NCBI RefSeq assembly: GCF_008691045.1
Contig: NZ_VMSO01000003.1
Location: forward strand, 124,001 to 188,000
DNA from: Mediterraneibacter catenae
Lineage (GTDB): Bacteria; Bacillota; Clostridia; Lachnospirales; Lachnospiraceae
Reading direction: 5' to 3'
Length of the DNA stretch: 64,000 bases
A program made the translations under genes and the position numbers. Under the pieces are notes generated by a model. It searched no databases. It worked only from the letters and a program-made list of their open reading frames with translations, and was not told where the DNA came from. Within the stretch, counting starts at the first letter, position 1. Every line of letters starts with the position of its first letter. This document shows positions 2,743-55,773 of this stretch, in pieces.

Positions 2743-3369
2743 ATGGTAAAAGCATGGATTGCGGATGTTACATCACTTCTGGAGAAGGAATGTTATGAAA
2801 GGTATTACAGGAAGGTTCCTGATTTTCGGAAGAAAAAGGCAGACGTGCTCCGGCTGGATCAGATGAAAGCGCAGAGTGTGGGCGTGTGGGCATTGTGGCA
2901 GAAGATACAGACAGAGTACCATCTGCCGGAGAATGCAGCCTTTAATTTTTCGCATTCGGGCAATTACGTTATGTGTGCAGCGTGTATGGACGGTGAAAAC
3001 ATTCAGGTCGGCTGCGATATTGAAAAGACAGGAGAGCTTAAAATGAAACTTGCCCGGCGCTATTTCTGTCGGGAAGAATATGATACCATTGCAGCGGCTG
3101 AGACGGATGATGAGAAAACGGATCTTTTTTTCCGGTACTGGGTGCTTAAAGAGAGTTTTATGAAAGCGACGGGCAGAGGAATGGCGCTGCCGGTCAATTC
3201 TTTCTGCATCCGTATGGGAGAACCGCCTGACCTTATCAGGCAGCCGGCTGAGTTTGCGCAGAAGTATTATTACAGAGAATACCGCATCGAAGGACTGGCG
3301 TATAAAATGGCGGTATGTTCTACAGATAAGGATATTGATACGGAATTACATACAGAGTTGACATTATGA
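2743..3369 (+). CDS. 4'-phosphopantetheinyl transferase superfamily protein
   Basis: A 208-residue protein of the Sfp/ACPS superfamily, which moves the phosphopantetheine arm of coenzyme A to a serine of carrier proteins. The metal-binding signature GCDIEK lies near residues 90-95 and the second motif WVLKESFMKATGRG near 132-145. The N-terminal half is short, as in Sfp-type enzymes. It starts 2 bases after the GGDEF-EAL gene and overlaps the following carboxypeptidase by 4 bases, so the three are probably cotranscribed. No polyketide or peptide synthetase is visible nearby, so the carrier protein it serves is unknown. Confidence 0.9.
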   Translation: MVKAWIADVTSLLEKECYERYYRKVPDFRKKKADVLRLDQMKAQSVGVWALWQKIQTEYHLPENAAFNFSHSGNYVMCAACMDGENIQVGCDIEKTGELKMKLARRYFCREEYDTIAAAETDDEKTDLFFRYWVLKESFMKATGRGMALPVNSFCIRMGEPPDLIRQPAEFAQKYYYREYRIEGLAYKMAVCSTDKDIDTELHTELTL

Positions 3370-4163
3370 TAAAATTTGACATTGACAGACATAAGATAAA
3401 GACATTGGGAGCGGGGGCAGCAGCGGGGCTCGCAGCCGGAATTCTGATTACTTTTCTGGGAGCTTATTGTGTTATCTCAGAGGACAGATTGGCAGCGGCA
3501 GCAAAAGAGGAACAGCTGACGCAGGAAAATGAGCAGCTTGCAGAGGAACTTAAGAAAGAACGCGCAGTGCAGGAAAATACCGAGACGCTTGCCGGTGATG
3601 AAGACGGCTGGCAGCTCATTCTTGTGAATGAAGATCATCCGCTGGATTCTTCCTACGAACCGGAGAAGCTGACAGAGATATCGCCGGGATATGAGGTGGA
3701 TAACCGGATAGTTTCGGATCTTCGGCAGATGCTGGATGACGGAGCGGCAGAGGGGCTGAGCATGTATGTGACGTCAGCTTACCGGTCTTACGAACAGCAG
3801 ACTCAGACATTTAACGCATCGATGCAGAATCGCCTGAACCAGAAGATGACTCCTCTTGAAGCTTATCAGGAGACAAGCATGTCTGTTGCGCTTCCGGGGA
3901 CGAGCGAACATGCGACCGGCCTTGCCGTGGATATCATTTCTACGGAGTATGCAGCTCTTGATGACAGGCAGGGGGATACGGAGGAACAAAAATGGCTTAT
4001 GGAACATTGCTGGGAATATGGGTTTATTCTGCGATATCCGCCGGAAAAGTCTGATATTACCGGCATCATTTATGAACCTTGGCATTATCGGTATGTAGGA
4101 AAGGACGCGGCCAAAGAGATAACAGAACAGGGGATTACCCTGGAAGAGTACCTCGGCCAGTAA
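3366..4163 (+). CDS. M15B-family D-alanyl-D-alanine carboxypeptidase (VanY-like)
   Basis: A 265-residue protein with one N-terminal membrane segment (about residues 14-37), a short coiled stretch, then an extracellular peptidase domain. Family motifs are present: TSAYRSYEQQ, SEHATGLAVDI (zinc-binding SxHxxGxAxD type) and EPWHYRYVG (ExWH). It should trim the terminal D-alanine of peptidoglycan stem peptides outside the membrane. The ATG overlaps the end of the transferase gene in an ATGA-type junction, which suggests coupled translation. No vanA/B-type ligase or dehydrogenase is nearby, so a role in ordinary wall maturation is more likely than glycopeptide resistance. Confidence 0.9.
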   Translation: MIKFDIDRHKIKTLGAGAAAGLAAGILITFLGAYCVISEDRLAAAAKEEQLTQENEQLAEELKKERAVQENTETLAGDEDGWQLILVNEDHPLDSSYEPEKLTEISPGYEVDNRIVSDLRQMLDDGAAEGLSMYVTSAYRSYEQQTQTFNASMQNRLNQKMTPLEAYQETSMSVALPGTSEHATGLAVDIISTEYAALDDRQGDTEEQKWLMEHCWEYGFILRYPPEKSDITGIIYEPWHYRYVGKDAAKEITEQGITLEEYLGQ

Positions 4164-8873: not shown

Positions 8874-8975
8874 AAAAAATCCTCCTTAATGATAGTAAAC
8901 AGAAAAATGTGTTGTTCGTTATCATTCAGGAGAATGTGCGTTTCCAATAAGACCAAAATCCGTTATTCTTTTTTA

Positions 8976-9235
8976 CGTGCATTGCGCTTCGAACATGATC
9001 CACAGGCGTTACCCCGGCAGTTGACTCAGCCCAGGCACCCTCACGGCACCCGGGAGCTCCTGCTTAGTGCTGCTCCGTTCCCGACCTGACACGGTTCACA
9101 GGTTCCCGTCGCGTGAGACCCAGACATCAACATCACTTACCGGGGGCAGCCCTGCAGACTGCCGCCCTCTGCGCAATATCACCCCTGCTATAGCGGATTG
9201 CAGGTTCAAGGTACCGCTAACACCCCGGCTGCACG
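8976..9235 (-). ncRNA. ffs: Signal recognition particle RNA, large (Alu-containing) type
   Basis: Read on the minus strand, the region holds the conserved SRP domain IV core (GTCAGGTCGGGAACGGAGCA, then GCACTAAGC) and the flanking GGTGCCGTGAGGGTGCCTGG seen in Bacillus-type scRNA. The 5' part contains an Alu-like domain. The ends pair: CGTGC at the 5' end with GCACG at the 3' end, giving about 260 nt. This RNA joins Ffh to form SRP, which targets nascent membrane and secreted proteins. The exact ends are inferred from pairing and the promoter position. Confidence 0.93.
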
Positions 9236-9242
9236 AGTCTTT

Positions 9243-26740: not shown

Positions 26741-27433
26741 ATGAAACGAGGAAAAAAATATATTGAAGCTGCGAAACTGATCGAGAGAGGAAATCTCTAC
26801 GACAAAGAAGAAGCAGTGGCACTTGTTAAGAAAGCAGCAGTAGCAAAGTTTGACGAGACAATCGAAGCTCACATCAGAACAGGATGTGACGGACGCCATG
26901 CAGATCAGCAGATCCGTGGTGCGGTTGTGCTTCCGCACGGAACAGGTAAGAAAGTCCGCATCCTTGTGTTCGCTAAGGACGCAAAGGCTGAGGAAGCAAA
27001 AGCAGCAGGAGCTGATTTTGTAGGCGGAGATGAGCTGATCCCGAAGATTCAGAATGAAGGATGGCTTGACTTCGATGTAGTTGTTGCAACACCGGATATG
27101 ATGGGCGTTGTAGGACGTCTCGGACGTGTACTCGGACCGAAAGGCCTTATGCCGAACCCGAAGGCCGGAACAGTTACAATGGACGTAACAAAGGCTATCA
27201 ACGAGATCAAAGCTGGTAAGATCGAGTACAGACTTGACAAGACAAACATTATCCATGTACCGATCGGTAAAGCTTCCTTTACCGAAGAGCAGTTAGCGGA
27301 CAACTTCCAGACGCTTATCGATGCAATCAACAAGGCAAGACCGGCAGCGGTTAAGGGACAGTACCTGAAGAGCATCACTCTTACATCTACAATGGGCCCT
27401 GGCGTAAAGGTTAATCCTCTGAAGCTTGCATAA
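26741..27433 (+). CDS. rplA: 50S ribosomal protein L1
   Basis: A 230-residue protein of the L1 stalk that guides deacylated tRNA out of the ribosome. The opening [24 protein letters not shown] and the block [17 protein letters not shown] are conserved. As in other bacteria it may repress its own operon through the leaders noted here. AAGGAGGT precedes the ATG by 9 bases. A terminator follows at once, separating it from rplJ. Confidence 0.97.
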
Positions 27434-27449
27434 TTTTAGATGAATATAA

Positions 27450-27489
27450 GATCCTCATGCTATGCAAATGGTATGGGGGTCTTTTTTTT
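27450..27489 (+). terminator. Terminator after rplA
   Basis: GATCCTCATGCTAT (27450-27463) pairs, with G-U pairs, with ATGGTATGGGGGTC (27468-27481), and eight Ts follow. It cleanly ends the rplK-rplA transcript before the condensin operon. Confidence 0.85.
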
Positions 27490-27524
27490 GTCCTGTTTTC
27501 ATCCCCGGGCCGGGATGCGGCGGC

Positions 27525-27554
27525 TTTACACTTCGTGAATGCGCGTGGTATAAT
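27525..27554 (+). promoter_or_regulatory. Sigma-A promoter of the jetABC-like operon
   Basis: TTTACA (27525-27530) and TATAAT (27549-27554) are 18 bases apart, 54 bases before the jetA-like ATG, just after the rplA terminator. Confidence 0.75.
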
Positions 27555-27607
27555 TATCGCGCACCCTGCGGCTTTGCCGTACGACGGTGGAATGACAGGA
27601 GGATATA

Positions 27608-29011
27608 ATGAGTCTGATCAACAGAATTCCCCATGATTTCTATAAATTATTCACAAGTAAATATACAGAGTATTATATGACCTTCCTTGTGGCGATCTAC
27701 GATGCCATGGAGCAGTCCTACTCGGTGCTTGGCCTGACGGAGAAGGAGTGCAGGGCCGTGATGAATGAAAGAATTGCTTCGGCGGCGATTTTGTGGGACG
27801 CGGAGAATTACGATGAAGACGGAGTGTTCCTCACGCGGTCTAATATGGCGTCCGTCTGTCTGAAGCACTTTGAAGACTGGGGCTGGCTTAAGCAGGACTA
27901 TGACGAGACGCTGAACAGCTATGTGGTCACATTTCCTGAGTACAGTCAGATGTATGTGGAACTTTTTGCACGCCTGCTGGACGAGAGCGACAGCCAGGAA
28001 CGGGAGAGCGTCCTTGCGATTTACAGTTATCTATATACATACAGTGTAGATGCGGAAAAGAACAATGAGATTTTGAAAAGTGCGCTGAATGCATCCAAAA
28101 GGCTGGTGCGTATGCTGGTCAATATGCAGGACGGCATGAGGGAATATTTTGATGAACTTTCCCGCCAGAAGGATTTTAAGGGAATACAGGATGTGCTTGT
28201 CAAAGAGATCAATAACAGCGACAGCCGCAAGTATGCGATCCTTACGACAACGGACAGTTTTTACCGGTATAAGGAAGCGGTCAGGGAACTGATCGTGAAA
28301 AATCTGGATGAAAATGAAGCGCGCAGAAGGCAGAAAGAAAGAGAACTGACCGCTCTGGAGCCGGGGACGCCGCCTTTTGTGAGGTGCAGCCGTGCGATAG
28401 GGCTCTGCGACGAAGCGGCGGATATCATGTTCCGGATCGAGCGGCAGTCGGACGTGATTGAGAGAAGATACAATAAGCTGATCGAGCAGAAGACTGTGTT
28501 TGCGGGACGGGCGGCGGCGCGCATTCGTTATATTATGCAGGAGGGGGCCGATGGCGATGACCGCACGGCTGTTTTTGTCAGTCTCCTGGGCAGGAGCGGC
28601 AGGAAAGATGAGATTGTGGAAGCGTTGGCGGAGCGTGTAGGAATAAGCGCTCCGCATCATCTCATGTCACCGGACAGCCTGTATATGAGAAGAGCATCCG
28701 GCAGGGAGGAGTTTGCGCCTCGGGCTGTGGAGCAGGAGAGCGGAGCCGGACCGGAAGAGATGGATTCGTTTATCCTGAAGCCCCTTTATACCCGCAGAGA
28801 AATTGACACATTCCGCAAAAAAAATGAGACGGACGGCGTGTTCCGGGTGAATGCTGATACCGTGCGCAGTGTGGAGGATCTGGAGAAACTGTTCTTTGTG
28901 TGGCAAGAGGCAACCGAGAAGGCTGAGAGCGGCGGAGATATCGAATTGGGAGAGGAACAGGAAAACAGTTCCGGCTTCAGGTACTCTTCGCTGACCATCC
29001 GCGGCGGATGA
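27608..29011 (+). CDS. JetA-like kleisin subunit (DUF5716 family, Wadjet/Mks type)
   Basis: A 467-residue, mostly helical protein. I recognise it by layout and by the opening SLINRIPHDFYKLFTSKYTEYYM as the family called DUF5716 or JetA, the kleisin (MukF/MksF-like) of Wadjet-type condensins. A winged-helix N-terminal region (about 1-140) and a C-terminal segment after a charged linker fit a kleisin that bridges two SMC heads. ACAGGAGGATATA precedes the ATG. It is the first gene of a three-gene operon between rplA and rplJ. Homology is from memory and not checked by search. Confidence 0.75.
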   Translation: MSLINRIPHDFYKLFTSKYTEYYMTFLVAIYDAMEQSYSVLGLTEKECRAVMNERIASAAILWDAENYDEDGVFLTRSNMASVCLKHFEDWGWLKQDYDETLNSYVVTFPEYSQMYVELFARLLDESDSQERESVLAIYSYLYTYSVDAEKNNEILKSALNASKRLVRMLVNMQDGMREYFDELSRQKDFKGIQDVLVKEINNSDSRKYAILTTTDSFYRYKEAVRELIVKNLDENEARRRQKERELTALEPGTPPFVRCSRAIGLCDEAADIMFRIERQSDVIERRYNKLIEQKTVFAGRAAARIRYIMQEGADGDDRTAVFVSLLGRSGRKDEIVEALAERVGISAPHHLMSPDSLYMRRASGREEFAPRAVEQESGAGPEEMDSFILKPLYTRREIDTFRKKNETDGVFRVNADTVRSVEDLEKLFFVWQEATEKAESGGDIELGEEQENSSGFRYSSLTIRGG

Positions 29012-29070
29012 ACGAAGAGCTGACAGGCCGGGACAGAGGAATATCCGGTGGACTATGAAAGGAAAAGGTT

Positions 29071-29709
29071 ATGTTTACATATCTGGAAGAACTGACAGTA
29101 ACAGAGGCAGAGCAGGTGAGGAAGACTGTGCAGGCGCTGTTCCGGCAGAGCTGCATCCTGCAGGTGAAGTATGATCCGGCCACACTGACGCCAAGGGACA
29201 ACCCGCAGTATGAGATCTGCGCAAGACACAGAGTGTTTATTGAAAATTATATCGAAGTGCTCGGATGCGAACTGGTTCATGACGCGCAGGAACATGTTTT
29301 CCGTCTGACCGGCGAGCATATGCCCAAAGAGAAACTGAGCCTTACAAGTACAGTGATCCTGCTTCTTGTAAAACTGATTTATAGAGACCGGATCATGGGC
29401 GAAGGACTGAATGCCCCGGTCACAACTTTGAAAGAAATCCGTGAATATGGAAAGAACACGAATCTGATCACGGAAAAGCTGACGCAGGCGCAGTGGAGGG
29501 AAGCGCTCTATCTGATGCGGATGCATCAGGTCATAGATCTGCCCGGCGCGGTGAGGGATGTAGAGGATGAGACTCCGATCTATATCTACAGTACCGTCAA
29601 CCTTTATGTGACGGCAGCGGATATCAACGCGCTGATTGAGGAATACAGAGGAGAGGGGGAAGAGGATGAGGCAGCCGAAGAAATTATTTACCAGAATTCT
29701 GATCAATAA
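29071..29709 (+). CDS. JetB-like MukE/KITE-type subunit (DUF4194)
   Basis: A 212-residue protein of the type that bridges a kleisin in Mks and Wadjet condensins (MukE, MksE, JetB; DUF4194). Features are winged-helix-like segments such as SLTSTVILLLVKLIYRDRIMG and a conserved-looking central block around residues 75-150, then an acidic end (EEYRGEGEEDEAAEE). AAAGGAAAAGG precedes the ATG. Its 3' end overlaps the SMC gene by 44 bases. The call depends strongly on gene order. Confidence 0.72.
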   Translation: MFTYLEELTVTEAEQVRKTVQALFRQSCILQVKYDPATLTPRDNPQYEICARHRVFIENYIEVLGCELVHDAQEHVFRLTGEHMPKEKLSLTSTVILLLVKLIYRDRIMGEGLNAPVTTLKEIREYGKNTNLITEKLTQAQWREALYLMRMHQVIDLPGAVRDVEDETPIYIYSTVNLYVTAADINALIEEYRGEGEEDEAAEEIIYQNSDQ

Positions 29710-32700
29710 CTGGGGCGGGATCAGCCATAAGATCCTCGATCTGAACGAGTATGTGAACCTTTTCAGTGGAAAGAGCGGATCTGGAAAATCCACCGTCATG
29801 GATGCGATACAGGTTGTGCTCTACGGCAGTGTATCCGCCAGCTTTCTGAATAAGGCGGCGGATGATTCGAAAAACAAACGAAGCGTGCTCAGCTATCTCA
29901 GAGGGGCTCAGAAAGACGGGAGTGTGAACAGAGCGGGTATGGATTTCTGTTCCCAGATTGTGATGGAGATCGAGGATACGGGGACGCGTATTGCGACCTG
30001 TATCGGAGCTGCGTTTGAGGTCGGACGGAATGATTCGGAGCTGAGGCGCTACAATTTTTTCAGTCATTCCGGACGGATGCCGGAGGATGAATATCTGGCG
30101 GACGGCGTGCCCTATACCATCGATCAGATACGAAAGCTGGCGAAAGAACGCTCTGTCAGCGTGGATAACAGAGGACACGGGGATGTAAACCGTGTTTATC
30201 CGTCAAAGGAAGCCTATCTGAATACACTTTATGAAGTGATTTTCGGCTGCGTAGAGCCGGGGCGGATGATCACCATGGAAAAGAGCGCGATTGCGTTGCG
30301 GATGTCAAATGGCACAGGGCAGTTTATCCGGGATTATATGTTTCCGAAGAGCAGGGAGAATACTGTGGCCGTGATCAGCGAGCAGCTGGGAGCTTACCGG
30401 GAGATCCGGGAACGCGTGGAGGATCTGGAGAAACGCATCGGGATGCTGGATGCGGTTCATGCGGCAGATCTGGAGCTTACCGGCGTCAGGGCGGATAAAC
30501 TGCATTCGGAGACTATTCTCAGATACATCGACATTGAGGGCTGCAGAGCAAAGCTTGCCTCCCGCGGCGATGATCTGGAACGGGCGAAAGAAGCCTCGGT
30601 ACGGGCGCAGCAGAGACAGGCCGGTGTTCAGGAAGAACTGACAGCTCTAAGAAACCGCCTTATCGATGTGAAAGCGGAGCTTAAGAATAGTGATTATGGT
30701 CAGAAGCAGCAGGAGCTTCAGGAAATGGAGCATACGATTCAACTGCTTGCAGACAGTTCGGCGGACTGGCGCAGGATTATAAACGGGCTGAAATGTTGGG
30801 AGGAAGATGAAACCGCGACCGATTATGTGAGTAACCGCGCTCTGCAGCTGATTGATGATTTTGCACGGGGCGAGGTGACAGAAGAAGCCTGCGGCGAATT
30901 GCGGACTCATCTGAAAGCGGCGATGGACAACATCTCAGAAGAACTGGCAGATACGGCGGTGTCGATCCGGGAGACGACAAAAGAACTCCGGGAAAAAGAA
31001 GAAGCGCTGGAAGATATGAACAACGACAGGAAGCCTTATCCGAAAGAGCTGAAGGAAGCGAGGCAGCTGCTCCAGAGCGCGCTGAGCGACCGGTATGGCA
31101 GAACGATCCATGTACATATCCTTGCTGATCTTTTTGATATTACTGATGAAAAGTGGAAGAACGCAGTGGAGGGCCGGCTTGGCCGGCTGAAAAAAAGCAT
31201 GATCACCGAACCGGCCTATGCGCTGGATGCGGCGAAGATCTTCCGGAAGATGAAGCGGTATGAGGAGGCGGATCTGATCAACAGCGCCGCAATAAAAAGA
31301 GAGTCGCCTGCGGCAGAGAAAAACTCTCTGTACGAGGCGGTGCATACGGATCTGGACTATGTGGACTGGTGTCTGAAACGGTATCTCGGCAAGATCCGGA
31401 AATGTGAGACGGTGGAAGAACTGGACAGTGTGCGGGATGGTGTAACGCCGGACTGTTACTCTTACAGCAACTATATATTCCGTCATCTGCGCAGCAGAGA
31501 TTACAGAAAAGGCGCCTGCATCGGGACAAGGATATCGAAAGCCAGATTAAGGGAACTGGCGGATGAGATTGAGAGTCTCCAGGAGCATCTGATCGGCGAG
31601 CGCCAGAGGGAGGCGTCTCTGAAGGATGCCCAGAAGTATGAGGCATTGAGCCAGGATACCGGACAGATACTGAGACTTTCCTCGGCTGCGGATGAACTGG
31701 AGGAATATTACCGGAAGCAGGAGAAACTCCGGAGAGAATTGCGGGAACTGGAAGACGGAACAAGGACTGCCGAGCTGAAGAACGAACAGGAAAAGCTGGA
31801 AACGGATGTTGCAGAGAAAGAAAAAAACGCCAGGGATATTCAGAAAGAGCAGATCCGCCTTGGCGGAGTCGTTGAGGCGGCGGAGCGCGATATTCAGGAT
31901 CTGAAGTCGAAGCTGGATGAACTTACGACCGGATTTGTAGAAAATGAGAAATTGACGGAAGAGGTAACCGCGGAGATCGCAAAACGTTCGGAGGCGTCTT
32001 ACCGGCAGTCGGTGAAAGCGCAGTTTGACCGTCTCTCTGAAAGAGAGGAAGAACTTGTTGATGAACGGACCATTGCGAGAAATCATTTCAACAGAGAATA
32101 TCCGGCGTACGGTTTCACCGGCGTAGAGCATTCCAACGAAGTATACGATCAGGTGCTGGAGCGCTGCCGGAAGGATTTCGAGCCGAAGTATAAAGAAGAA
32201 TTCCGGAAGCAGTATGAGCTTGTCTATCATTCCCTGAGGGACAATGTAATCGCCACTATACACGGGGAGATCAAGGCGGCTTACCGGCACAGGAGAGACA
32301 TCAACCGCATGCTCTCGAAGATTCGTTTCTCAGACAGTATCTACCAGATTGATATTCTTCCAGCCAGAAATGAGAATGGTCAGTTCTATGATATGCTGAT
32401 GGCTCAGGAACTGGACAGCAAGGTAATCGACAATGACGGTATAGACGGTCAGATGAGCCTGCTGGAGGATGATTTCTTCCGGAAATACGAGCAGAAGATC
32501 CGGCTGCTCACGGAGAAGTTTATGCCTCTGAGAGAGGAGGACAGCCAGAACCGTGAGAAACACCGGCAGGAGATGGAGAAGTTCGCCGATTACCGGAATT
32601 ATCTTACTTTCAGTATGTATGAGCAGGTGATCGATGAAAACGGAGTTGAGAAAAAGAATTATGTGGACGATATGGCGGGCGTAGACTCGGGAGGAGAAGG

Positions 32701-33046
32701 ACAGAACCCGAAATATGTGGCGCTGCTCGCGGGATTTGCCATGCTGTATATGCAGCAGACCAGCCGCGATCCGAAGATCCGGCTTGTACTCCTCGACGAG
32801 GCATTTTCCAAGATGGATAAGGAGCGAAGCGAGGTGTGTCTGCGGTATGCCAGAGAACTGGAACTTCAGCTTATTGTCTGTGTGCCGGACGAGCGTCTCC
32901 AGTCGCTGATTCGTAATGTGGACAGTGTCTACGGATTCCGGCGGTTTAAGAATCAGATCAGTATGATGCATATCGATAAAGGACATTATCTTGAGATGAT
33001 AGAGGGAGATGATACAGATGGAGAGCCTGCTGCCTGTAAAAAGTGA
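29666..33046 (+). CDS. JetC-like SMC ATPase (MukB/MksB type)
   Basis: A 1126-residue SMC-like ATPase. The Walker A loop FSGKSGSGKST lies near residue 32-42, long coiled coils occupy the middle with a hinge-like break around 490-600, and the C-terminal head has the signature DSGGEGQNPKYVALLAGF and Walker B RLVLLDEAFSKMD. This is the Wadjet/Mks pattern rather than classical SMC. I prefer the ATG at 29666 (after GGGGGAAGAGG) over 29636. With the two preceding genes it should form a DNA-loop-extruding complex; no jetD nuclease follows. Confidence 0.85.
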   Translation: MRQPKKLFTRILINNWGGISHKILDLNEYVNLFSGKSGSGKSTVMDAIQVVLYGSVSASFLNKAADDSKNKRSVLSYLRGAQKDGSVNRAGMDFCSQIVMEIEDTGTRIATCIGAAFEVGRNDSELRRYNFFSHSGRMPEDEYLADGVPYTIDQIRKLAKERSVSVDNRGHGDVNRVYPSKEAYLNTLYEVIFGCVEPGRMITMEKSAIALRMSNGTGQFIRDYMFPKSRENTVAVISEQLGAYREIRERVEDLEKRIGMLDAVHAADLELTGVRADKLHSETILRYIDIEGCRAKLASRGDDLERAKEASVRAQQRQAGVQEELTALRNRLIDVKAELKNSDYGQKQQELQEMEHTIQLLADSSADWRRIINGLKCWEEDETATDYVSNRALQLIDDFARGEVTEEACGELRTHLKAAMDNISEELADTAVSIRETTKELREKEEALEDMNNDRKPYPKELKEARQLLQSALSDRYGRTIHVHILADLFDITDEKWKNAVEGRLGRLKKSMITEPAYALDAAKIFRKMKRYEEADLINSAAIKRESPAAEKNSLYEAVHTDLDYVDWCLKRYLGKIRKCETVEELDSVRDGVTPDCYSYSNYIFRHLRSRDYRKGACIGTRISKARLRELADEIESLQEHLIGERQREASLKDAQKYEALSQDTGQILRLSSAADELEEYYRKQEKLRRELRELEDGTRTAELKNEQEKLETDVAEKEKNARDIQKEQIRLGGVVEAAERDIQDLKSKLDELTTGFVENEKLTEEVTAEIAKRSEASYRQSVKAQFDRLSEREEELVDERTIARNHFNREYPAYGFTGVEHSNEVYDQVLERCRKDFEPKYKEEFRKQYELVYHSLRDNVIATIHGEIKAAYRHRRDINRMLSKIRFSDSIYQIDILPARNENGQFYDMLMAQELDSKVIDNDGIDGQMSLLEDDFFRKYEQKIRLLTEKFMPLREEDSQNREKHRQEMEKFADYRNYLTFSMYEQVIDENGVEKKNYVDDMAGVDSGGEGQNPKYVALLAGFAMLYMQQTSRDPKIRLVLLDEAFSKMDKERSEVCLRYARELELQLIVCVPDERLQSLIRNVDSVYGFRRFKNQISMMHIDKGHYLEMIEGDDTDGEPAACKK

Positions 33047-33104
33047 AACTGTTCGGAAAAAAGGATGTTACGAAAAAACGGAAAAAAATGTAGAAAATAC
33101 TTGA
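33018..33104 (+). pseudogene. 28-codon open frame overlapping the jetC end; possible jetD remnant
   Basis: An ATG after GAGGGAGATG starts a 28-residue frame (opening MESLLPVKSETVRKKG) inside the end of the SMC gene and stops at the rplJ promoter -35 box. The overlap and spacing are what one expects for a coupled fourth gene. It shows no clear JetD similarity and is far too short for the 350-400-residue TOPRIM subunit. It may be a decayed start, or chance. Confidence 0.25.
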
Positions 33105-33129
33105 CAAAATAAACTTCGGGTGTTATTGT
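33101..33129 (+). promoter_or_regulatory. Sigma-A promoter of rplJ-rplL
   Basis: TTGACA (33101-33106) and TATTGT (33124-33129) are 17 bases apart, directly after the condensin operon and before the L10 leader. Confidence 0.85.
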
Positions 33130-33134
33130 AATAC

Positions 33135-33259
33135 AGCAACTGCCGAAGACAGTAGGTGCTGTAAAGCGTAAGGGTCAAAACGCCTACCGAGGAGAGTCAG
33201 ATTTATTACGAAAGTATGAATTTACAAACCTCTGTGTCTTTGCGGCGCAGAGGTTTTTT
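33135..33259 (+). promoter_or_regulatory. L10-type ribosomal protein leader with attenuator
   Basis: The transcript start region has the L10(L12)4-binding leader pattern: CTGCCGAAGACAGTAGGTG, then GCCTACCGAGGAG, which pair around a kink-turn-like part. It ends in an intrinsic terminator: CCTCTG (33229-33234) pairs with CAGAGG (33248-33253), followed by TTTTTT. Excess L10-L12 would stop transcription ahead of rplJ. A second hairpin without T run follows at 33281-33314 (TGTAACAG with CTGTTACA). Confidence 0.88.
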
Positions 33260-33343
33260 ACTTTGGCAGTACACGCACTATGTAACAGCTCCCCCTGATG
33301 GCTGAACTGTTACAGCAAAATTTATAAGGAGGTGTACCAGAAA

Positions 33344-33910
33344 GTGGCAAAAGTTGAATTAAAACAGCCGATCGTAGAGGCAATCGCAGAAGAGATCAAA
33401 GACGCTCAGTCAGTTGTGCTTGTTGATTACCGCGGACTTACGGTAGCTCAGGATACAGAGCTTCGTAAACAGCTCAGAGAAGCCGGCGTGGTATACAAGG
33501 TATACAAGAACACGATGATGAAGAGAGCTTTTGAAGGAACTGAATTCGAAGGCCTTGAGAGCTGTCTGGAAGGACCGAGCGCTATCGCGGTATCCAAAGA
33601 TGATGCGACAGCACCGGCAAGAATCCTGTGCAATTTCGCTAAGGACGCACCGGCACTGGAACTCAAAGGCGGCGTTGTGGAAGGAAATGTCTATGACGTA
33701 GCAGGACTTACAGAACTGTCCAAGATCCCGTCAAGAGAAGTACTTCTCTCCAGACTGCTTGGAAGCATGCAGTCACCGATTGCAAACTTTGCGCGTGTTA
33801 TTAAGCAGATCGCTGAGAAAGACGGCGAGGCGGCACCGGCAGAGGAAGCTGCAGCTGAGACAGCAGAAGCTCCGGCAGCTGAAGCAGCAGAGGCACCGGC
33901 GGCAGAATAA
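33344..33910 (+). CDS. rplJ: 50S ribosomal protein L10
   Basis: A 188-residue stalk base protein that binds L11-region rRNA and holds the L7/L12 dimers through its C-terminal helix. The body VVLVDYRGLTVAQDTELRKQLREAGVVYKVYKNT is conserved. The C-terminus carries an Ala-Glu-Pro-rich extension (about 165-188) beyond the standard fold. I chose the GTG at 33344, 10 bases after AAGGAGGT; an in-frame GTG at 33332 sits inside the binding site. Confidence 0.96.
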   Translation: MAKVELKQPIVEAIAEEIKDAQSVVLVDYRGLTVAQDTELRKQLREAGVVYKVYKNTMMKRAFEGTEFEGLESCLEGPSAIAVSKDDATAPARILCNFAKDAPALELKGGVVEGNVYDVAGLTELSKIPSREVLLSRLLGSMQSPIANFARVIKQIAEKDGEAAPAEEAAAETAEAPAAEAAEAPAAE

Positions 33911-55530: not shown

Positions 55531-55773
55531 GTTACGAACAGCGATGAACGGGATTAGTATATATGAGGGAATGCCACAGAGAGAAGGCGGATGGTGCGAG
55601 CCTTTTGCAGGACTGTATAGAACCGGCCCGGGAGCTTCTGCATGAAAATGCAGCGTACGTTCCGCGTTAAGGACGTAAGAGTGAACCGCGCATAAGTGCA
55701 GTTAATTAGGGTGGTACCGCCGGGATATCCGGTCCCTTGTTTTGAGGGACTTAAGATGTCCCGGCGTTCTTTT
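55531..55773 (+). promoter_or_regulatory. T-box leader controlling proS
   Basis: The leader has the stem I features (ATTAGTAT, AGAGAGAAGG), a likely specifier CCG at 55623-55625 after GAA, and the T-box AGGGTGGTACCGCC (55708-55721). Its TGGT would pair with the ACCA end of uncharged tRNA-Pro. The terminator stem CGCCGGGA (55718-55725) with TCCCGGCG (55759-55766) precedes TTCTTTT. Uncharged tRNA-Pro would open the path into proS. The specifier is inferred, not proved. Confidence 0.9.

Follow-up and report, generated by a model that had tools for sequence, protein, structure and literature searches.

What does the SMC complex of a Wadjet system do when its nuclease is missing? The question is raised by three genes, jetA, jetB and jetC, which separate the ribosomal protein genes rplA and rplJ in the gut bacterium Mediterraneibacter catenae. 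They lie in a stretch of 64,000 nucleotides (contig NZ_VMSO01000003.1, positions 124,001 to 188,000; hereafter the window), whose own numbering is used below. The genes are the JetABC core of a type I Wadjet system without JetD, and this core is real, selected and nuclease-free. We consider it fairly probable that jetD was lost and that the remaining SMC core has been retained for a JetD-independent job, likely that of a condensin of the host chromosome. A broader proposal is put forward more tentatively: that a branch of type I Wadjet in Lachnospiraceae was repeatedly and independently converted to a nuclease-free SMC motor that was retained for a function in the cell, probably at the chromosome, and that at least one lineage regained or replaced the nuclease.

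The JetABC core and the missing JetD

The first gene, jetA (27608-29011, forward strand, as are all features of this locus), encodes a MukF/kleisin-like subunit of 467 residues that matches the PADLOC JetA1 profile with 719 bits and Pfam PF18982 with 267.9 bits (cut-off 26.2). The product of jetB (29071-29709; 212 residues) is a MukE/KITE-like subunit, matching PADLOC JetB1 with 350 bits and Pfam DUF4194 (PF13835) with 43.3 bits (cut-off 32.7). The SMC ATPase is encoded by jetC. Its open reading frame opens at 29636, but the ATG at 29666 was taken as the start, giving a gene at 29666-33046, a protein of 1126 residues and an overlap with jetB of 44 nt. JetC matches PADLOC JetC1 with 1466 bits, lies well above the cut-offs of Pfam SbcC_Walker_B and AAA_29 and barely above that of MukB_N (24.0 bits, cut-off 23), and has intact Walker A, SGGEGQ signature and Walker B motifs. 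The preliminary description, made from the sequence alone, had recognised kleisin, MukE-type and SMC genes in a Wadjet/Mks layout; in the comparison with Wadjet and Mks families that it called for, type I Wadjet profiles match all three proteins.

Structural comparisons point the same way. The predicted fold of JetA has weak multi-domain matches to MukF and Wadjet chains, that of JetB matches MukE and one Wadjet chain, and a JetC profile searched against the PDB detected JetC of 8dk1 (E 6.9e-8). Single JetA or JetC sequences found no Wadjet chain in the PDB, nor did a JetD1 profile, and the JetA profile returned nothing useful there.

In type I Wadjet (JetABCD, MksBEFG or EptABCD) the JetA1, JetB1 and JetC1 families and the gene order are the same, and in close relatives JetD1 is encoded directly after jetC at the same site. 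The M. catenae genome differs in having no JetD1, so that this core is left without a dedicated cleavage arm. MukBEF shares with the operon the folds of MukF and MukE, matched by the JetA and JetB models, and a MukB N-terminal Pfam match just above its cut-off, but the NCBIfam MukB model (NF003422) scores 18.8 bits against a cut-off of 699, and JetC has 1126 residues compared with 1486 in the model. Smc-ScpAB differs as well, JetC scoring 28.9 bits with SMC_prok_B (TIGR02168; cut-off 567), a model that the Smc of M. catenae, encoded elsewhere (G000:C24), matches with 1100 bits.

No jetD had been seen at the locus in the preliminary description, and this extends to the genome. Nothing JetD-like is found between jetC and rplJ, and a profile (A1) built from 18 JetD1 proteins of relatives had no match at E 0.1 in the M. 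catenae genome (3.18 Mb in 63 contigs, 100% complete, 0.26% contamination). The same profile recovered JetD in all five relatives used as positive controls (L033, L036, L049, L051 and L068; E <1e-180). The sole JetD_C match in M. catenae is a JetD2 (PADLOC, 399.7 bits) on a different contig, where it belongs to a complete type II Wadjet operon of JetA2, JetB2, JetC2 and JetD2 (G000:C34, locus L139, 999-9494). This second SMC defence system of the genome is a separate operon of other families (DUF2397, DUF2398, JetC2 and DUF3323-DUF2399).

Loss of jetD among relatives

A scan of species genomes identified 39 named loci with the same JetABC (40 including M. catenae), titled Mediterraneibacter, Faecalicatena, Dorea, Schaedlerella, Ruminococcus, unnamed Lachnospiraceae and others, many of them metagenome-assembled. 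A full-length jetD adjoins the operon at 18 of the 39 loci, directly after jetC in 17 and before jetA in one (L068). Two loci have it elsewhere, L036 on a second contig, next to the 3' half of jetC, and L048 about 9 kb from the operon; in two others it is truncated or split (L039, L059), and 17 have none. This JetD is thus missing from both locus and genome in 18 of the 40 (M. catenae and 17 relatives). In L068 the gene occupies 2786-3976, upstream of jetA rather than downstream of jetC.

The A1 search covered 25 relative genomes. Besides the controls, it detected JetD in L048 (E 6e-154), a full copy on another contig in addition to the broken one in L039, and the split copy in L059. Among the 17 jetD-less relatives there was no match in 15, and in L057 and L065 only weak matches to other proteins.

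Within the genus, surveyed in 58 genomes, this JetC (at least 62% identity) is found in 24 and this JetD in 16, always together with that JetC. One of the eight genomes with the JetC but without the JetD (G204) carries a jetD remnant of 35 residues containing a stop. Remnants were found in three more relatives: L067, L039 and L059. Compared by eye, the L067 junction has the first jetD codons fused to a C-terminal piece, and L039 has an internal deletion; the junctions of L037, L064 and L042 are clean, with differing ends. In M. catenae itself, by-eye comparison with jetD-bearing relatives suggested a possible vestige of the jetD start, ATGGAGAGCCTG (33018-33029). It resembles ATGGAGTGTCTG, the start of jetD in L033, but lies in a different frame within the end of jetC, and as its bases double as code for the JetC C-terminus it is weak evidence alone.

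Because close relatives have jetD at the same site, some of them as remnants, its absence is read as loss and not as primary absence. The suggestion that the system had lost its weapon thus fits the relatives well. On a JetABC tree of 37 rows (without the partial or broken L036, L047 and L048, and with L039 and L059 scored as jetD-less), 12 losses would be needed if JetD is ancestral, or 11 with weakly supported nodes collapsed, and equal-cost parsimony gives 10 changes. On these counts, jetD was apparently lost many times independently. The traffic also seems to have gone the other way at least once. The jetD of L040 (15450-16685) groups with that of L046 (support 100), whereas its JetABC groups with that of L064 (support 100), a conflict suggesting that L040 kept its jetABC but regained its jetD, or had it replaced, from an L046-like lineage.

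Retention of the core and rival explanations

JetABC is under strong purifying selection in jetD-less lineages. Pairwise codon models were fitted to 17 pairs. Six jetD-less pairs (L055-L056, L054-L065, L058-L070, L061-L070, L055-L060 and L037-L064) sit in jetD-less or mostly jetD-less clades, and in these the ratio of nonsynonymous to synonymous rates (dN/dS) is 0.053-0.086 for JetC, 0.060-0.134 for JetA and 0.025-0.075 for JetB. In M. catenae and L067, whose losses look separate, it is 0.047, 0.075 and 0.096 for JetC, JetA and JetB; in five jetD-bearing pairs it is 0.035-0.052, 0.031-0.119 and 0.038-0.123. The pairs L054-L065, with both flanks in common, and L061-L070, with the same sequence directly after jetC, each have their jetD-less junction in common; their divergence most likely postdates the loss, and their dN/dS values (at dS 0.57-2.5) fall inside the jetD-less ranges. 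L058-L070 have only the upstream flank in common, and L055-L060 neither.

The proteins themselves are well preserved. Each of the 20 copies that have no intact jetD retains intact Walker A, signature-core and Walker B motifs, and the reading frames of JetA, JetB and JetC are open in M. catenae and the other jetD-less loci as far as covered, with the exception of the L058 JetA, which stops 8 codons short of its match end. Among the 39 loci, internally broken jetC genes are found in L047, with a stop near codon 49, and in L048, with a frameshift; both genomes have jetD. Two other candidate breaks were rejected: in G181 (the genome of L037) the frame is open over the match, and in G229 the stop lies 3 codons from the match end.

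Several observations weigh against retention for a JetD-independent job. JetC dN/dS is slightly higher in jetD-less than in jetD-bearing pairs, although the JetA and JetB ranges overlap. In the mixed pair L040-L064 the values are 0.30 (JetA) and 0.59 (JetB, not distinguishable from 1), but these figures rest on very few changes (dS 0.02-0.03), too few to judge. In relative-rate comparisons, the jetD-less member evolved faster in 10 of 15 overlapping triplets (p<0.005 in eight, p<0.05 in two); the other five showed no difference, and in none was it significantly slower. Some relaxation or adaptation of JetABC in jetD-less lineages is therefore likely. The loss in M. catenae may also be recent, and for this reason selection after the loss cannot be isolated there. 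Lastly, some JetD-like match, a potential partner in trans, is present in M. catenae and in 10 of the 17 jetD-less relatives.

The faster evolution and the slightly raised JetC dN/dS are what would be expected of a decaying remnant that shed the costly nuclease first and whose jetABC now drifts neutrally towards loss. This is unlikely. The dN/dS values of 0.03-0.13 in six jetD-less pairs, including the two with a common jetD-less junction, the ATPase motifs unchanged in 20 of 20 copies and the open frames (the L058 JetA being 8 codons short) are grounds for rejecting decay as the main explanation, and the broken jetC genes of L047 and L048 are in jetD-bearing genomes.

A nuclease encoded elsewhere, also raised in the preliminary description, would let JetABC borrow the type II JetD2 or another JetD and go on cleaving plasmids. 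The M. catenae genome has a complete JetABCD2 operon, five jetD-less relatives have strong DUF2399 proteins of JetD2 length (L037, L045, L067, L058 and L070), and JetD_C proteins of other kinds are found in L057 and L065, with weak JetD_C matches in L055, L060 and L069. However, JetD2 has a different N-terminal family (DUF3323) and its own operon, and searches with JetD_C and DUF2399 found no match in seven of the 17 jetD-less relative genomes, which are mostly draft metagenome assemblies (L042, L064, L054, L056, L061, L062 and L063). For these seven a JetD elsewhere is unsupported. A borrowed nuclease is thus possible in M. catenae, given its JetD2, but cannot easily be the general answer, and we give the explanation as a whole little weight. 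A substitute effector encoded after jetC fares no better: by inspection, the jetD-less loci have none in common, and their downstream genes vary by lineage. The exception is a second group of JetABC loci (described below), where yfcE- and NYN-like genes recur, but these also adjoin jetD in L197.

It would also be conceivable, at a similarly low probability, that JetABC still targets plasmids without cutting them, by sequestering small circles or by hindering their replication or partition. In the mechanism outlined in a review (PMC10586767), shape and size sensing is conferred by JetABC, which is the part retained here. That jetD is missing from the assemblies only is very improbable: many relatives are metagenome-assembled and L056 and L069 end shortly after jetC, but in M. 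catenae a single contig continues from jetC through the L10 leader into rplJ, internally deleted or split remnants survive in L067, L039, L059 and G204, and two cultured strains with long contigs (L060, L063) have no jetD either.

Retention for a JetD-independent job, the reading preferred here, would work as follows. The JetC ATPase, the JetA kleisin and the JetB KITE subunit would still load on DNA and presumably extrude loops. Like MksBEF in Pseudomonas aeruginosa, JetABC would serve as an additional condensin of the host chromosome alongside the housekeeping Smc, and selection would keep the core for a task independent of JetD. An action on chromosome layout, which had been offered as one option, would be compatible with the strong purifying selection on JetABC where jetD is absent, and such a role would be the likeliest function.

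MksBEF of P. aeruginosa is likewise a three-gene kleisin-KITE-SMC core beside a normal Smc, and one report (PMC7485682) describes a contribution of it to chromosome segregation. The review mentioned above (PMC10586767) proposes that the MksBEF of Pseudomonas derives from JetABCD through loss of JetD. In Borrelia, which has neither MksE nor MksF, MksB contributes to long-range contacts, as stated in a further study (PMC10406323). Another paper (PMC10123090) reports four-gene mksFEBG operons in Pseudomonas species too, and that in Corynebacterium losing MksG has the same consequence for plasmid stability as losing MksB. The M. catenae operon differs from MksBEF in its sequence family (16 bits with Pfam MksE, PF21980; cut-off 27), in that its losses were probably many, some leaving remnants, and in that its chromosome function is putative.

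If the broader proposal of repeated conversion is true, the transition from defence to housekeeping that was proposed for MksBEF would here be seen under way many times over. Among sister species the core is conserved whether or not jetD is present, and two of the jetD-less ones are named cultured strains (L060, L063); cultured jetD-less species include Schaedlerella arabinosiphila DSM 106076 and Dorea phocaeensis Marseille-P4003. Such species allow a direct test of whether JetABC acts on the host chromosome, and of whether defence systems become organisers by shedding a nuclease. A survey that scored JetABC by itself as Wadjet would overestimate defence. In the open-licence literature searched, no paper was found that deals with these operons or with repeated loss of JetD. 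The term 'incomplete Wadjet' is reportedly used in one published paper (PMC11680222).

Wider distribution and genomic setting

In a family sample of 150 genomes, JetA was matched in 33. A reading by hand against the JetD_C search of those genomes placed JetD_C on the JetA contig, at most about 12 kb away, in 15 (one being the broken L059 copy); 14 have none nearby and four were not judgeable (G009, G010, G029 and G065). Twelve of the 14 regions were inspected, and in these jetABC is present with no jetD match.

Eleven genomes of the genus also carry JetABC of a second lineage, whose JetC is about 30% identical, with JetD in four and none in the regions of the other seven; as its loci were chosen mostly for being without jetD, the absence there may be either loss or ancestral. 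Most of its 45 pairwise dN/dS values were saturated (dS >3) and unused, but in seven jetD-less pairs with dS <3 that of JetC is 0.062-0.080. The neighbouring genes in L190-L197 are ones that we take, from their motifs, to be yfcE- and NYN-like. In the jetD-bearing control L197, jetD lies between jetC and the yfcE-like gene. The stop of jetC overlaps the start of the yfcE-like gene in five of the seven jetD-less copies.

Outside this branch, JetD is the rule. JetC was matched in 24 of 293 genomes of a class sample. The four top scorers against the JetC profile (M. catenae, G440, G254 and G283) have no JetD within 1.5 kb after jetC, whereas JetD follows jetC in 16 of the 17 other assessable loci (Fisher p 0.0008, uncorrected for relatedness and with the grouping made after the scores were seen). 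In this count L202, with jetD in two pieces, was scored as with JetD and L212 (820 bases) as without, and the contig-end loci L207, L218 and L221 were dropped. As the class loci give JetD matches, the JetD profile detects JetD far more distant than any that would have been missed here.

The preliminary description took the ribosomal position as a sign of stable vertical inheritance, and this has been weakened. In the window, nusG, rplK and rplA (26741-27433; Pfam Ribosomal_L1, 252.8 bits) precede jetABC, and rplJ (33332-33910; Pfam Ribosomal_L10, 107.2 bits) and rplL follow it. The site is shared within one species group: rplA and/or rplJ adjoin the operon in 19 of the 39 related loci. The other 20 have no rpl gene within the flanks examined, some of which are short. 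The genus survey gave an rplA match in 47 of the 58 genomes. Among the best 30 rplA loci, which were read, rplA and rplJ are adjacent (263-442 nt apart) in six, jetA follows rplA within the flank in nine, and other sequence follows in 15. In three of these 15 (G182, G189 and G230) the jet operon lies past an insert, and L164 ends soon after rplA. By inspection of translations and not by family search, the inserts between rplA and rplJ (L149-L177) contain transposase-, AAA ATPase-, PfkB/PTS-, phosphoesterase- and glycosidase-like genes that differ by species. In this genus the gap between rplA and rplJ (27434-33331 in the window) is a hotspot for insertions, so position is weak evidence of vertical inheritance, and the apparent jetD swap in L040 also tells against it.

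A promoter of its own after the rplA terminator had likewise been proposed, and candidates for both were found by consensus scan. A terminator-like hairpin (27448-27483) follows rplA, and a promoter-like TTTACA-18-TATAAT (27525-27554, 11 of 12 matches) precedes jetA; a similar motif lies 5' of jetA in L032, L045 and L067. For this region the scan gave three promoter-like sites where chance alone predicts 5.5, and because this count is not above chance the promoter and terminator calls rest on position and the near-consensus match. Downstream of jetC, a promoter-like TTGACA-17-TATTGT (33101-33129, 10 of 12) precedes the L10 leader (33125-33268; RF00557, Rfam 80.6 bits, gathering cut-off 44). 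Elsewhere in the window are a large signal recognition particle RNA (8975-9236, reverse strand) and a T-box leader (55535-55740, forward strand).

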